20,321 bases of DNA from a virus. This document shows, in pieces, positions 5,568 through 15,934 of the stretch. The number at the start of each line of letters is the position of its first letter. Positions within the stretch are counted from its first letter, which is position 1. Under the pieces are notes generated by a model, which worked only from the letters and a program-made list of their open reading frames with translations, did not search any database and was not told the DNA's origin. The stretch covers positions 1 to 20,321 of IMG/VR virus record IMGVR_UViG_3300047564_000408; one strand, written 5' to 3'. The translations under genes and the position numbers were made by a program.

Positions 5568-5799
5568 TATTGCTTTCAATCAATCGTTGTGTTGCTTCTG
5601 AATACTTATTCATTGACTTATATTCTTCTATCTTATCACCTCTAAATAACGGTGTAATCTTAATATGATGTGTAGCATTTTTTAAGTCATTAAGATATGA
5701 CAGTTCTTTAGGATGAAATGACCACAGGTAAGACTTTTTAAGGTCACCTGACTTAACATCAAACTCTTCGTAAAGCCATGCTACAGGTTCTTTTTTCAT
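5557..5799 (-). CDS. 80-aa conserved phage-type protein
   Basis: 80 aa. Begins MKKEPVAWLYE and has ITPLF near residue 48; the pair EPVAW...TPL(F/Y) marks a small phage protein type that I recall in many early regions without known role. The start ATG overlaps the stop of the SleB-like gene as TAATG, so it is translated by coupling. The sequence is mixed charge with aromatic residues in the first half and a helical, polar second half. No catalytic motif. Confidence 0.6.
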   Translation of the reverse strand: MKKEPVAWLYEEFDVKSGDLKKSYLWSFHPKELSYLNDLKNATHHIKITPLFRGDKIEEYKSMNKYSEATQRLIESNNGL

Positions 5800-6182
5800 T
5801 AGTAAAACACCATCCTTCCTATGTGAGTAATCTTTTTATGACCAAACCACGAATGTTTTGGCATAATCGAGTCATCATGGAAATACAGACTGTTTGCCAC
5901 TGGATTTGCAAATTTATTAAATACAATTGCATCAAGTACCAATAGTTGCGTTTCAAGATACGTCTTTTTATCAACTTTCTTATGGCTCTCGTCTGTAACG
6001 CCAATAAATTGCCCAGAAGCATAAATAACAGAGCATACATCACGACCCCAAAGACCAGATTTGACACGATTACGAATAACATTAATGACACCTAGCTTCT
6101 CCTCTAATGTTCTATTATTAACTTCGTGATACACAGCAGTAGCATAGCACGAAACTTCTAGTTCTAAGTTATGTATATCCAT
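5799..6182 (-). CDS. SleB-type cell-wall hydrolase (Hydrolase_2), candidate endolysin
   Basis: 127 aa. The start of the domain shows the SleB/CwlJ pattern: Glu20 in YHEVNN (catalytic acid position), then GVINVIRNRVKSG (33-44), a VCSVIYASGQF block (49-59) and a C-terminal FHDDSI...HSWF region. Hydrolase_2 enzymes cleave the glycan strands of peptidoglycan and serve as endolysins in several phages. There is no signal peptide, so a holin would be needed for export. It is placed at the far end of the leftward early operon, on the strand opposite to the holin, which is unusual for a late lysis gene. The ribosome binding site GAAAGGT stands five bases before the ATG. Alternative roles are early cell-wall remodelling or an ejection-linked activity. 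Confidence 0.75.
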   Translation of the reverse strand: MDIHNLELEVSCYATAVYHEVNNRTLEEKLGVINVIRNRVKSGLWGRDVCSVIYASGQFIGVTDESHKKVDKKTYLETQLLVLDAIVFNKFANPVANSLYFHDDSIMPKHSWFGHKKITHIGRMVFY

Positions 6183-6203
6183 TACAGACCTTTCATGGTT
6201 TTC

Positions 6204-6235
6204 TTGTGTCTAGTAAACCCATATAAGCGTATAAT
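6204..6235 (+). promoter_or_regulatory. Promoter candidate for pqqA
   Basis: A perfect -10 hexamer TATAAT lies at 6230-6235, 33 bases before the pqqA ATG. The best -35-like hexamer, TTGTGT at 6204-6209, is 20 bases upstream, longer than the usual 17, so the match is moderate. The gene is the only rightward gene in this part of the window and cannot be read from the leftward operon, so it needs its own promoter. Confidence 0.45.
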
Positions 6236-6268
6236 TCTACTATAAATCTAAAAGAAAGGAGAAACGCC

Positions 6269-6340
6269 ATGTGGACAACACCATCAGCAACTGAAATGCG
6301 CTTTGGATTTGAAGTTACTATGTACGTAATGAACAAGTAA
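6269..6340 (+). CDS. pqqA: PqqA-like peptide, precursor of pyrroloquinoline quinone
   Basis: A 23-codon gene with a strong ribosome binding site (AGGAG at 6257-6261, seven bases before ATG). The peptide starts MWTTPSATE, continues MRFGFEVTMY and ends VMNK. It has the length of classical PqqA and its signature: Trp2, Pro5, Arg11, Gly13, then E-V-T-x-Y with Glu15 and Tyr19, the two residues that PqqE cross-links and that become PQQ. PQQ is the periplasmic cofactor of methanol, alcohol and glucose dehydrogenases. No pqqB-E gene is in the window, so the peptide would use host enzymes. It stands alone on the plus strand inside a leftward operon, with its own promoter-like sequence. A chance match of this length and motif spacing is very unlikely; whether it is processed is inference. 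Confidence 0.93.
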   Translation: MWTTPSATEMRFGFEVTMYVMNK

Positions 6341-6353
6341 TTATCATGCGAAT

Positions 6354-6381
6354 GGGGATGCTCCTAGAAAGGAACATCCTC
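6354..6381. other. Hairpin after pqqA, overlapping the 3' end of the SSB-tail gene
   Basis: GGGGATG (6354-6360) pairs with CATCCTC (6375-6381, one G-T wobble) and TCCT (6362-6365) pairs with AGGA (6370-6373), leaving a four-base loop and a one-base mismatch. It begins 13 bases after the pqqA stop, so it could protect or end the short pqqA transcript. No T-tract follows on either strand, so it is not a standard intrinsic terminator. Part of it encodes the acidic tail of the opposite gene. Confidence 0.4.
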
Positions 6382-6606
6382 ATCTGCACCTTCTACAGCT
6401 GGTTTACTTCTTGTTTCACCCTGAGTTTCTTTCATCTGTACAGAACCGCTAATAAACTTGCCGTTCTTACCTTCTCTAATCCAACCACTAATTCTAAACT
6501 CAATGCCATCTACGTTTGCAGTTCCTGCGTAATCAGGTCGTTTAGGATTGTCACCCTTATCATTCTTAAATAATGCAAATGTGTTTGTGTTATCGTACTG
6601 CGCCAT
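6364..6606 (-). CDS. Small protein with SSB-like acidic tail, possible ssDNA-binding
   Basis: 80 aa. The first 55 residues look like a compact beta-rich domain (NTFALFKND, ANVDGIEFRISGW, KFISGSVQM), followed by a polar linker and the C-terminal tail EDVPF preceded by acidic residues. Bacterial SSB proteins end in the same kind of acidic tip (DDDIPF), which docks repair and replication proteins. Together with its place just after the annealing protein and exonuclease genes, this suggests a minimal ssDNA-binding or recombination accessory protein. The main domain is a type I recall from many phages, but I cannot confirm an OB fold. RBS AAAGGAG is seven bases before the ATG; the gap to the exonuclease stop is three bases. 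Confidence 0.65.
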   Translation of the reverse strand: MAQYDNTNTFALFKNDKGDNPKRPDYAGTANVDGIEFRISGWIREGKNGKFISGSVQMKETQGETRSKPAVEGADEDVPF

Positions 6607-6609
6607 ATA

Positions 6610-7239
6610 CTACTCCTTTAGTTTTAAAATTGTTGCGTCTACTTCGTCTAGGAACTTAATTACTTCAGCTTCTAGTTCTGCAATGTAAGCATTATCTCTT
6701 TCAACTCTAGCTACAAAAAGTTGCATTGTATCAGGGAAGTTTGGATTAAAAGAAATAAAATCTACCCATTTTACGTTAGGACTTACAGAAGCCATTTGCC
6801 ATTGTATCTGTGGAATGTATTTACTAGGCACAGACTTACTCATAAGTGTATTAGTATGGGTTGTTTCTATAGGACATTTAATCTCTATAAGACCTGCATA
6901 CTTACCTTCTTCTTCTGCATTTACAGCTCCGTCAGGACTAGCACCACTATTCTTAATAACAGGATGGTCAAAGAAACCTACCTCTGTTACAGATACCCCT
7001 TTAGTTTGCATATAAAGCTCTCTAGCAGCACTTTCTCTTTCAATCCCATCTAACATAGCCTGATTAACAAAGCTATCGCCTTTCTTGCCTGTAAGACGTT
7101 CTGATACTAATTGGACAAGGTAGTTTTGACGTGACGTAGATACACCTGTTTTAGTCTTGGCTATGACATCCGATATTCTGGATGCCGTAACCTTACCTAG
7201 ACGTTGTTCAAACCATTCTTCTGTGCGTTGTTCTATCAT
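6610..7239 (-). CDS. YqaJ/lambda-exonuclease-like recombination nuclease
   Basis: 209 aa, typical for the YqaJ viral recombinase family. The visible motifs are RTEEWFEQRLGKVTAS (5-20), GIERESAARELY (65-76), SPDG with Asp103, LIEIKCP with Glu119 and Lys121 (the PD-(D/E)XK active site), and IPQIQWQM (142-149). These enzymes digest one strand of dsDNA ends 5' to 3' and hand the ssDNA to an annealing protein. Its start overlaps the stop of the DUF1071-type annealing protein gene as ATGA, the classical two-component phage recombination pair. It is probably used in recombination-dependent replication and end repair of phage DNA. Confidence is high from the complete motif set. Confidence 0.92.
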   Translation of the reverse strand: MIEQRTEEWFEQRLGKVTASRISDVIAKTKTGVSTSRQNYLVQLVSERLTGKKGDSFVNQAMLDGIERESAARELYMQTKGVSVTEVGFFDHPVIKNSGASPDGAVNAEEEGKYAGLIEIKCPIETTHTNTLMSKSVPSKYIPQIQWQMASVSPNVKWVDFISFNPNFPDTMQLFVARVERDNAYIAELEAEVIKFLDEVDATILKLKE

Positions 7240-7640
7240 AGGAAGTCCTTGCTAGATACAGCTTTTAATGTTGGTTGTTCTGTATCAGGAGCTATGTCTT
7301 CACCAGAATATATGTATAAGCCAATACCATGTAATGCAATAGCTTTAGCTAAACAACGCTGCATAGCTGTATTAACTGCCATAGCATCAGGGTTAGGAAT
7401 AGCTTGGTTTCTAAAGTTAAGCACAGGTAATTGTGAAGTCATAGACTTACCAAACGCATGTACTGTGCAGAATACCATAAGTGTTTCACCAAACTGTTTA
7501 GGTTCGCCATAAGTCCATGTAGCAGTTGGGTCTTGCTGTAGAAGAGTATCCACAGCCCAAGCCCATGATAAGTATGATAGACCATTCTTTTTCTCAATGT
7601 GGTCTGATACATTAATCTTACGTAGTTCGTTATAGTTCAT
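7236..7640 (-). CDS. DUF1071-type single-strand annealing protein
   Basis: 134 aa from ATG 7640, chosen because AGGAGAG stands five bases upstream and because the conserved domain begins right there; an ATG at 7724 would add 28 Gln/Met-rich residues encoded in the overlapping upstream gene. The motif order matches DUF1071: LSYLSWAWAVDTLL, ATWTYGEP, ETLMVFCTVHAFG, LPVLNFRNQAI, DAMAVNTAMQRCLAKAIALHG and GLYIYSGED. These proteins anneal complementary ssDNA and are grouped with Rad52-like phage annealing proteins. The stop overlaps the exonuclease start (ATGA), making a recombination pair. The last residues (SKDFL) may contact the exonuclease, but this is a guess. Confidence 0.88.
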   Translation of the reverse strand: MNYNELRKINVSDHIEKKNGLSYLSWAWAVDTLLQQDPTATWTYGEPKQFGETLMVFCTVHAFGKSMTSQLPVLNFRNQAIPNPDAMAVNTAMQRCLAKAIALHGIGLYIYSGEDIAPDTEQPTLKAVSSKDFL

Positions 7641-7800
7641 TTTTCTCTCCTGTTGTTGGTGTTGTTCCATCATCACCTGGTCGTAAAACTGTTGTTGACT
7701 CATTTGCTCTCTCCCTTTCATCAAATCGTTTATTAAATTCTTCTAAGTCTTTCCATACTTCTGGTAATATTTCAGCGATACGCTTTAAACCATTCGCCAT
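7630..7800 (-). CDS. 56-aa acidic helical protein upstream of the annealing protein
   Basis: Start taken at ATG 7800, giving MANGLKRIAEI and 56 aa; GGGGGT lies seven bases before it. A longer frame starting at 7878 exists, but its extra 26 residues overlap two tiny membrane-peptide frames and lack a good ribosome binding site. Residues 4-34 form an amphipathic helix (LPEVWKDLEEFNKRFDERER), followed by a Thr/Gly-rich tail. It overlaps the annealing protein gene by 11 bases. Function unknown; it could be a small partner in the recombination operon. Confidence 0.55.
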   Translation of the reverse strand: MANGLKRIAEILPEVWKDLEEFNKRFDERERANESTTVLRPGDDGTTPTTGEKNEL

Positions 7801-13723: not shown

Positions 13724-13868
13724 GCCAGGTCTCTACGCAAACATTGCAGCCAAAAGAGCTAGAATAAAAGCTGGTTCAGGCGAAAAGATGCGCAAAGTAG
13801 GAAGTAAAGGCGCACCTACAGCTATGCAATTTAAACAAGCAGCAAAGACAGCAAAGAAAAAGAAATGA
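13713..13868 (+). CDS. Small Lys-rich protein (MANKPGLYANI type)
   Basis: 51 aa. The N-terminal block NKPGLYANIAAKRARIKAGSGEKMRK followed by GSKGAP, and a Lys-rich end, match a small protein type I recall from many phages. It starts inside the previous gene and couples to the next by ATGA. Strong positive charge suggests DNA or RNA binding, perhaps DNA packing in the head. Function not established. Confidence 0.7.
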   Translation: MANKPGLYANIAAKRARIKAGSGEKMRKVGSKGAPTAMQFKQAAKTAKKKK

Positions 13869-14158
13869 GTGTTTGGCAAAAGAAAGCAGGTAAGAACCCT
13901 AAAGGTGGCTTAAACGCTAAAGGTCGTGCCTCATACAATAGAGAAACAGGTGGTAATTTAAAAGCACCAGTAAAGTCAGGCGATAATCCTAGACGTGCAT
14001 CTTTCCTAGCAAGAATGGGTAATATGCCAGGACCAGAACGCAAACCTAACGGTGAACCAACAAGACTATTACTATCACTAAAAGCATGGGGAGCATCTAG
14101 CAAAGCAGACGCAAAAGCGAAAGCTAAAGCTATAAGCGCAAGAAACAAAAAGAAGTAA
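13865..14158 (+). CDS. Basic protein, DUF6321-like
   Basis: 97 aa, very basic. Carries the full set of blocks I associate with DUF6321: GGLNAKGRASYNRETGGNLKAPVK, NPRRASFLARMGNMPGP, GEPTRLLLSLKAWGASSKADAKAKA. The family is found in phages and some bacterial genomes and has no proven function. It is the last of the four tandem basic genes and overlaps the glycosyltransferase gene by one base (TAATG). Late expression and charge make a virion or DNA-packing role possible. Confidence 0.75.
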   Translation: MSVWQKKAGKNPKGGLNAKGRASYNRETGGNLKAPVKSGDNPRRASFLARMGNMPGPERKPNGEPTRLLLSLKAWGASSKADAKAKAKAISARNKKK

Positions 14159-14865
14159 TGCTGAAATTAGATATATACGTAGGATATGACGGTAAGGTTG
14201 AGCCTGTGGCTTATCATAACTTTTGCCAGTCAATCATAGAAAAGTCATCTATACCGGTAAGTTTTACACCATTAGCATTAAATACTTTAAAAGACTACGA
14301 AGAAACACATAAAGACGGTAGCAACGCATTTATCTACTCACGCTTTTTAGTGCCATATCTAAACAACTTTAAAGGTATTGCACTATTTGTAGATGGCGAT
14401 ATGACGTGCCGCACAGACATTGCAGAGATACTGGCGAACTTTGATAATGACGAAGCAGTCAAAGTCGTAAAGCATAACTACACAACAAAGCATCCTATCA
14501 AGTATCTAGGTGCAAAGAACGAAGACTATCCTAAAAAGAATTGGTCAAGTGTTATGTTATGGAATTGTTCACATTGGTTAAACCGTCAGCTAACACCTAA
14601 GTTTATTCAAGAGCAAACAGGTAAATACCTACACAGGTTTGAATGGCTCAAATATCCTGAAGAGCAAGTAGGTAAGCTAGACGAAACATGGAACTGGCTA
14701 GAAACAGAATACGAATACAACCCAGATGCTAAGTTAGTGCATCATACATTAGGCACACCATGCTTTAAAGACTATCAGAATACAGACTATAGTCAAGAAT
14801 GGTGGGAAACATACCAAAGAATGATATACCCACTTAAGGGAAACAAACGACAATCGGAGTTATAA
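14158..14865 (+). CDS. GT8-like glycosyltransferase (GT-A fold)
   Basis: 235 aa. Starts with the LDIYVGYDGKVEPVAYHNFCQSI block typical of phage GT-A enzymes that resemble family 8; FVDGDM at 78-82 is the DxD metal and nucleotide-sugar site; NWSSVMLWNC (128-137) and VHHTLGTPC near 196-203 are further family-like blocks. No signal peptide or membrane segment, so it acts in the cytoplasm. Possible targets are host surface precursors, phage DNA bases, or virion proteins; the sequence does not decide. It is in the late operon just before the zeta-like kinase and the terminase genes. Confidence 0.8.
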   Translation: MLKLDIYVGYDGKVEPVAYHNFCQSIIEKSSIPVSFTPLALNTLKDYEETHKDGSNAFIYSRFLVPYLNNFKGIALFVDGDMTCRTDIAEILANFDNDEAVKVVKHNYTTKHPIKYLGAKNEDYPKKNWSSVMLWNCSHWLNRQLTPKFIQEQTGKYLHRFEWLKYPEEQVGKLDETWNWLETEYEYNPDAKLVHHTLGTPCFKDYQNTDYSQEWWETYQRMIYPLKGNKRQSEL

Positions 14866-14866
14866 T

Positions 14867-15934
14867 ATGGCATTATTAAACACATGGGCAAGTCAGCAAG
14901 ACCCAAATAGTTTATCGCCATTAGACCGTGCTTTAAATACTTATATTCAACAAGGTAATGCTCCATTATCATATTTATTACGTGGCGATACACAAGGTTT
15001 ATTAAAAGATATAAATACGCCTAGACCTGTTAACATTACTCAGGATATGATGAATACAGCTTTAAATGTTAATCCTGTATCTGGGTTATTAAGCAAAGCA
15101 ATTACTCAAGGACCAAAATATAGTTCTTTGTTAGGTAAATCAGATGTAGAACAGTCTGCAACCAATAGATTAATTACACAATACCCAGAACTTAAACAAC
15201 AATATAATACTTTAGATTTACCCCATGCTGAAACAAAAGGTGGTAGAATATTAAATACTGATGCTGCAAGAGAGTTATTTCCTGAATATCAGGCAAATAG
15301 AACGTTATCTGCACAAGTGCATGAACCAGCAAGTACATTTGTTAAGAACTTATATGCAGAAAAACTATCTCAACCTACACCTAAAGGTTATGATAGTACA
15401 GTAGTATTTACAGCAGGTGGAACTGGAGCTGGTAAATCAAAAGCAATACAACAAGCATCTCAAGCAGCTTCTGATACAATTAATAAAGCTGAAATGATTT
15501 ATGATACAAACATGAATACATTTAAGTCAGCAGATGATAAAATACAACAAGCATTAAAAGCAGGTCGTGATGTAAGAATATTTTATACTTATCGTGACCC
15601 AATAGAGTCATTAACAAAAGGAGCTTTACCTAGAGCTTCAGGTATAGAAGCAACTTTTGGTTCTGGTAGAACAGTACCATTATCAGAACATTTAAAAACA
15701 CACGTTGGTTCTAGAAAAACTATAGATGAATTAGCTTCTAAATATAAAGATAACCCAAACGTACAAATTTCAGCAATTGACAATTCTAGAGGAAAAGGCA
15801 ACTCTAGAAGAATAGAGTTAAGCGATTTGCCAAAATTAAATGAAAAAGCATTAAGGAGACAATTAAGTGAAGCCCTTGAACAATCCAAATCAAACATATC
15901 AGAAGCAATCTACACAGGCACAAAAGATTACTAA
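14867..15934 (+). CDS. Zeta-toxin-like P-loop kinase with long N-terminal region
   Basis: 355 aa. Residues 1-170 are polar with no known domain. From 174 the sequence reads STVVFTAGGTGAGKSKAIQQ, a Walker A (184-191) of the zeta-toxin type, followed by IYDTNM and a helix, then RDVRIFYTYRDPIES (strand-loop with Arg), and a variable C-terminal part. Zeta toxins phosphorylate UDP-N-acetylglucosamine or other small substrates and stop wall synthesis; phage zeta-like domains are also found in virion-linked proteins. No epsilon antitoxin gene precedes it, but a 51-aa gene overlaps its 3' end. Located between glycosyltransferase and terminase genes. It could be a late host-poisoning enzyme or a virion-carried effector; a mere structural ATPase is less likely. 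Confidence 0.7.
   Translation: MALLNTWASQQDPNSLSPLDRALNTYIQQGNAPLSYLLRGDTQGLLKDINTPRPVNITQDMMNTALNVNPVSGLLSKAITQGPKYSSLLGKSDVEQSATNRLITQYPELKQQYNTLDLPHAETKGGRILNTDAARELFPEYQANRTLSAQVHEPASTFVKNLYAEKLSQPTPKGYDSTVVFTAGGTGAGKSKAIQQASQAASDTINKAEMIYDTNMNTFKSADDKIQQALKAGRDVRIFYTYRDPIESLTKGALPRASGIEATFGSGRTVPLSEHLKTHVGSRKTIDELASKYKDNPNVQISAIDNSRGKGNSRRIELSDLPKLNEKALRRQLSEALEQSKSNISEAIYTGTKDY

Follow-up and report, generated by a model that had tools for sequence, protein, structure and literature searches.

Our results reveal that pqqA, the gene for the 23-residue peptide precursor of PQQ, is near-fixed in three phage lineages (those of the window, of Venkman and of P19250A) and patchy in two others. 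The window is the whole stretch of DNA analyzed here, the 20,321 nucleotides of IMG/VR virus record IMGVR_UViG_3300047564_000408, and probably comes from a virus that infects methanol-using bacteria of the Methylophilaceae. We consider it likely that pqqA is a precursor-only auxiliary gene, which feeds the host's own PQQ pathway during infection and in this way helps the phage.

The product was identified as PqqA because two curated profiles score it above their cut-offs. Pfam PF08042 (PqqA) matched over its entire length (profile positions 1-19) with 41.3 bits against a cut-off of 21.1 (E 1.4e-10), and NCBIfam TIGR02107 gave 38.5 bits against a cut-off of 20 (E 6.9e-10). An earlier note, made from the letters of this DNA, had described a 23-residue PqqA with Trp2, Pro5, Gly13, Glu15, Val16, Thr17 and Tyr19. 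All seven residues were found, and the similarity to PqqA held in both profile collections by wide margins. The residues that are cross-linked and become PQQ, Glu15 and Tyr19, are both present, three residues apart. When the PqqA pattern (W-x2-P-x7-G-x-E-V-T-x-Y) was searched as DNA, it occurred once in the window and in none of 100 shuffles; a chance ORF is ruled out by the two profiles, the shuffles and a control with the pattern reversed. No solved structure matched the peptide. Judged by its sequence, the product is authentic PqqA. It is like the Methylophilaceae type of the family in its length, its match to the whole profile and its Glu and Tyr, and an identical peptide occurs in hosts; unlike family PqqA, it is encoded by a phage, outside a pqqBCDE operon and beside phage recombination genes.

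Table 1. Features at and around pqqA in the window
Feature	Position	Strand	Basis
pqqA, 23-residue PQQ precursor peptide MWTTPSATEMRFGFEVTMYVMNK plus stop	6269..6340	+	translation, profiles, DNA pattern
Shine-Dalgarno (SD) AAAGGAG, ending 7 nt 5′ of the ATG	6255..6261	+	sequence
Putative -10 box TATAAT within block GCGTATAATTC	6230..6235	+	invariance in 10 aligned relatives
Hairpin 3′ of the pqqA stop, overlapping the ssb 3′ end; putative two-way terminator	6347..6388	+	-22.3 kcal/mol, z -3.97
Cell wall hydrolase / endolysin-like protein, start at 6182, divergent from pqqA	5799..6182	-	
Single-strand DNA binding protein (SSB), ending at 6364, convergent with pqqA	6364..6606	-	
YqaJ-type exonuclease, marker of the lineage survey	6610..7239	-	
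Sak single-strand annealing protein	7236..7724	-	

In the window, pqqA sits between two opposite-strand genes, with the hydrolase on one side and the SSB, YqaJ and Sak recombination genes on the other (Table 1). The strong ribosome binding site previously claimed for it is present, and an SD-like motif precedes pqqA in all 68 window-lineage members examined. The -10 box proposed with it stood only in part: the TATAAT is there, in a block whose 10 aligned relatives were hand-chosen, but a strict sigma-70 scan of positions 5700-6700 reports no promoter at pqqA. With one mismatch or fewer, TATAAT lies upstream in 52/52 window-lineage stretches; since it is also found in 127/159 host stretches, these counts carry no proof. 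The mean z of the hairpin is -4.80 in the window lineage (38 distinct stretches, against simple shuffles), -3.56 in the P19250A lineage (n=38) and -1.78 in the Venkman lineage (n=12), and a strict terminator scan reported no terminator at pqqA, hairpin included. As both strict scans were negative, it is conservation that points to pqqA as, probably, a small transcription unit of its own. Elsewhere in the window, positions 14867-15934 encode a protein of 355 residues that includes a kinase domain of the zeta-toxin type; before it, at 14158-14865, lies the gene for a glycosyltransferase-8-like protein, whose score is below the Pfam cut-off. The sole near DNA match of the entire window in the phage collection is a stretch of 94 bases (13771-13864) with 88% identity to Roseobacter phage CRP-4, where it lies inside a small hypothetical gene.

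Since selecting on PqqA was to be avoided, we fetched relatives via neighboring genes. In the YqaJ survey of the window lineage (80 loci), pqqA was present at 66 of the 68 loci whose downstream sequence was 700 nt or longer and at 71/73 when shorter positives were included, always antisense to YqaJ and 334-976 nt past its end. The YqaJ survey of the Venkman lineage (80 loci) found pqqA at 31 of 33 informative loci with at least 60% identity and at none of 41 below 60%. The corresponding survey with P19250A gp31 (80 loci) gave 59/61 among loci that had 700 nt downstream and an identity of 60% or higher (64/66 in the lineage with shorter positives) and 0/3 below; the 60% split was chosen after viewing the identities, before counting. 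At all six loci without pqqA in these three near-fixed lineages, there was no decayed copy. The strand of pqqA is the same as that of YqaJ in P19250A and opposite in Venkman and the window. Although the annotation of P19250A gp31 (L001:2546-3202) reads diguanylate cyclase/phosphodiesterase, its matches are phage recombination exonucleases, and it shares 38% identity with the window YqaJ. A terminase survey, with pqqA in 8/80 stretches, was uninformative because 10 kb separate terminase and pqqA in the window and most stretches were short.

Two further surveys gave the patchy pattern. With the MEP401 marker, pqqA was found near 3/12 loci; with the Melnitz marker, it was found at 8/47 loci of at least 60% identity and at 0/26 below. 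Alignment of 13 Melnitz/MEP401-type loci revealed a block of ~150 bp, containing the SD and pqqA, that is missing in other loci; in Melnitz it directly precedes a tRNA-Leu gene. Melnitz-like loci with and without the block share a 99-100% identical marker (L464-L470 versus L467, L468, L502 and L007), and its presence or absence in these phages could follow host range. As the surveys covered one site, pqqA could sit elsewhere in Melnitz- and MEP401-type phages. The Melnitz leader contains GCCCTC, which is able to pair with the SD GGAGGGC; since its z is only -1.46, we make no regulatory claim for it.

Viral pqqA usually goes unannotated. The PqqA-shaped DNA pattern matched at least 120 stretches in IMG/VR, and all 120 of those listed are PqqA frames with start, SD and stop; a control with the pattern blocks in reverse order gave 2 matches. 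A tblastn search with PqqA against 50,697 phage records returned 12 matching records, and Acinetobacter PqqA as a second query returned the identical twelve. Two of these, filed as 'Acinetobacter phage', were dropped as bacterial contigs. The remaining 10 are P19250A, Venkman, MEP301, MEP401, MEP402, four Melnitz isolates and one uncultured Manatee Spring virus. The hosts of the nine isolates are all Methylophilaceae/Methylophilales, and in none is the gene annotated as PqqA: five isolates have no annotation whatever at the site, and in Melnitz EXVC044M, as in the Manatee Spring virus, a hypothetical protein is annotated on the opposite strand. No PHROG matched pqqA. The suspicion that genes of this kind are overlooked in other phages owing to their small size was thus well founded, and the isolate records and fixed phage neighbors place a host-type metabolic gene in real virus genomes. 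Because PqqA itself was the query, the nine isolates give no denominator; further phages are known by name, among them MEP431-434, Venkman EXVC038S, mg-mtp1 and rsa-mfp1. We found nothing relevant in the literature on MEP431/432/434. When other proteins of P19250A, MEP401, Venkman, MEP301 and Melnitz were used as queries, the matches listed contained no further Methylophil- record. Four Pelagibacter phages have a phosphodiesterase with 64-68% identity to that of MEP301, and none of the four is among the PqqA matches.

How might a phage profit from this gene? In PQQ synthesis, PqqD and PqqE cross-link a Glu and a Tyr of PqqA, and a protease, PqqB and PqqC complete PQQ. As PqqA is the sole pathway component consumed one for one, it is the part worth carrying. 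During infection of Methylophilaceae, the phage gene would be transcribed as its own small unit and would yield the peptide, which would then enter the host pathway, where PqqD/PqqE would join Glu15 to Tyr19. PQQ, the cofactor of methanol dehydrogenase, would thus stay available while host gene expression falls. Cyanophage psbA-type auxiliary genes likewise encode a part that a host energy process uses up, and they are common in the phages of that host; here, the part is a 23-residue cofactor precursor instead of an enzyme subunit.

The hosts themselves offer a precedent. We detected PqqA in 149/150 Methylophilaceae genomes, with 1-12 copies each. Hosts are described as having 3-12 pqqA copies, with the other pqq genes single as a rule (PMC4109929), and a PQQ-producing methanol user has five copies, two of which are the most expressed (PMC9851590). 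Since hosts multiply the consumed part alone, phages that add pqqA copies do as their hosts do. The phage gene resembles the stand-alone pqqA copies of Methylophilaceae in being an extra precursor gene without extra enzyme genes (PMC4109929) and differs in that the extra copy arrives via a phage. For the window itself, a methylotroph host, as implied before, is favored by the nine cultured relatives, all from lineages other than its own, and by host genomes that encode the very same peptide. Against this host, 150 Methylophilaceae genomes contained just one relative of the window terminase, at 44% identity.

That many related viruses keep pqqA intact suggests a demand for fresh precursor in infected cells. 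However, PQQ can be reused as a cofactor, so why a single infection would require more of it is not self-evident. Also against precursor supply, most Melnitz-like and MEP401-like relatives are without pqqA at the surveyed site (8/47 and 3/12 have it), and three window-lineage loci (L302, L324 and L351) have GMEITAY in place of GFEVTMY at the same site, an allele type found in 0/187 Methylophilaceae genomes. The GMEITAY motif occurs in 3/369 genomes of the class, in each case in an unrelated protein. The allele possibly reflects a host switch.

The earlier note had also stated that the window holds no other pqq gene and that the phage seems to supply the precursor only. The first claim stood as far as it could be followed: PqqE was absent from the window record (20.3 kb), and PqqB, PqqC and PqqD were absent among the 20 window proteins examined (10 in Pfam and 10 others in NCBIfam). 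The second agrees with the relatives. We examined 45 long virus records, which may be fragments (34 of the 120 pattern loci, picked for length, and 11 of the window lineage). PqqA scored above cut-off in 44/45, while PqqE reached its cut-off of 381 in none (one weak match had 27.7 bits) and PqqB matched none. Adjacency to a pqqBCDE operon, which is usual but not required for PqqA, was thus found neither in the window nor, judged by PqqE and PqqB, in the 45 records. In the phage collection, the only close PqqE matches were the two bacterial contigs, with the other 11 matches below 60% identity. A full pqq operon in phages was rejected for this collection, the two 'Acinetobacter phage' contigs having been set aside as bacterial. 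The stretch L008 (CAKLQF020000010.1, filed as 'Acinetobacter phage MD-2021a') contains ppk, pqqB, pqqC, pqqD and a radical SAM gene; since ppk is also present, it looks like bacterial chromosome. Under the same name, CAKLQH020000055.1 has PqqD and a radical SAM gene beneath its PqqE match.

The PQQ-dependent alcohol dehydrogenase family was found in only 1/45 of the long virus records, and pqqA therefore has no direct tie to that enzyme. This rarity fits a benefit other than methanol oxidation, in which the peptide would become modified PqqA or PQQ whose use lies, for example, in redox protection, in another PQQ enzyme or in PQQ set free at lysis. We regard this as unlikely, given that the nine cultured carriers infect Methylophilaceae and that, in the Lake Baikal study (PMC7678222), viruses have PqqA together with methanol dehydrogenase. 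In L054 (record G164, 72 kb), PqqA and a PQQ-dependent alcohol dehydrogenase occur together, as in the Baikal viruses.

Support of methanol oxidation has been proposed for a T4-like virus of Lake Baikal with PqqA and methanol dehydrogenase (PMC7678222). As described there, the Baikal Methylophilaceae virus populations VP_139 and VP_266 are like the window in a virus-encoded PqqA for methanol oxidation, but they are T4-like and have methanol dehydrogenase, and the window's lineage is a different one. Here, in contrast, the 45 long related or PqqA-bearing records contain PqqE in none, PqqB in none and methanol dehydrogenase in one, and pqqA is near-fixed in three lineages. In a 2026 paper, viral pqqA, E and D appear on a list of phosphorus-cycling genes (PMC13188868). 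The available parts of the main texts on Venkman, MEP301, MEP401/402 and Melnitz do not name PqqA, and that of the Melnitz paper names PQQ solely as a medium component. PQQ is present at 1 nM in the medium published for OM43 (PMC9004378). Thus, viral PqqA is already in print; among open-licence full texts, we found neither its near-fixation in methylophage lineages nor a paper describing it as common in methylophages.

Selection keeps pqqA as a peptide. Over all codons, dN/dS was 0.120, 0.107 and 0.073 in the window, Venkman and P19250A lineages (40, 7 and 41 haplotypes), and it was 0.169, 0.138 and 0.101 once codons prescribed by the search pattern were excluded. PqqA was present at 303 of the 530 viral loci examined, as 72 distinct peptides. 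These data bear on a possible decoy role, in which the phage peptide would tie up PqqD/PqqE of the host and so prevent PQQ from being made. Phages often block the metabolism of their hosts, and the binding part is conserved along with the core. Yet a decoy would be free to lose the cross-linked residues, and Tyr19 is present in 72/72 distinct viral peptides, although the search also permitted Phe (Glu15 was required by the search, so its invariance is fixed by design). Moreover, the six lineage loci without pqqA hold no mutated copy, and the common peptides are identical to host ones. We consider a decoy very unlikely.

A strong hairpin directly past the pqqA stop codon could mean that the conserved element works as RNA (a leader, small RNA or terminator) and not as a peptide. 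Within pqqA, pS is 0.34-0.43 and pN 0.045-0.065, such that synonymous sites vary freely while the peptide is retained, and the window has no Rfam match; we judge an RNA function to be highly improbable. Comparison of 144 viral and 130 host nucleotide haplotypes (leaving out sequences containing N, and one viral and one host sequence lacking the expected stop) revealed only 3 in common, and therefore no fresh capture from a host; at the peptide level, 4 were common to the viral and host sets. Although the window peptide occurs in host genomes (4/126 peptides within 120 stretches) and the two 'Acinetobacter phage' records have PqqA adjoining bacterial pqq genes, a functionless recent capture or misfiled bacterial DNA is scarcely credible in view of the few common haplotypes, the fixed phage neighbors and the purifying selection.

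Beyond precursor supply, we lean cautiously toward a model in which this stand-alone gene for a cofactor precursor belongs to the core of several obligate-methylotroph phage lineages, acquired by unrelated phages, kept intact or lost whole, and with alleles swapped at one site. Unrelated phages carry it in different settings: next to recombination genes, next to a T4-like tRNA gene, and in Zobellviridae. If this model is true, PQQ precursor supply would limit virus production in these hosts, and a 23-residue frame, which gene callers miss, could identify uncultured phages as methylophages and serve as a possible host marker. Methanol in coastal and lake water is turned over by OM43- and Methylopumilus-type bacteria. 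If the phages of these bacteria routinely carry pqqA, one peptide would sustain C1 oxidation during infection, and PQQ supply would be a testable bottleneck of infection.
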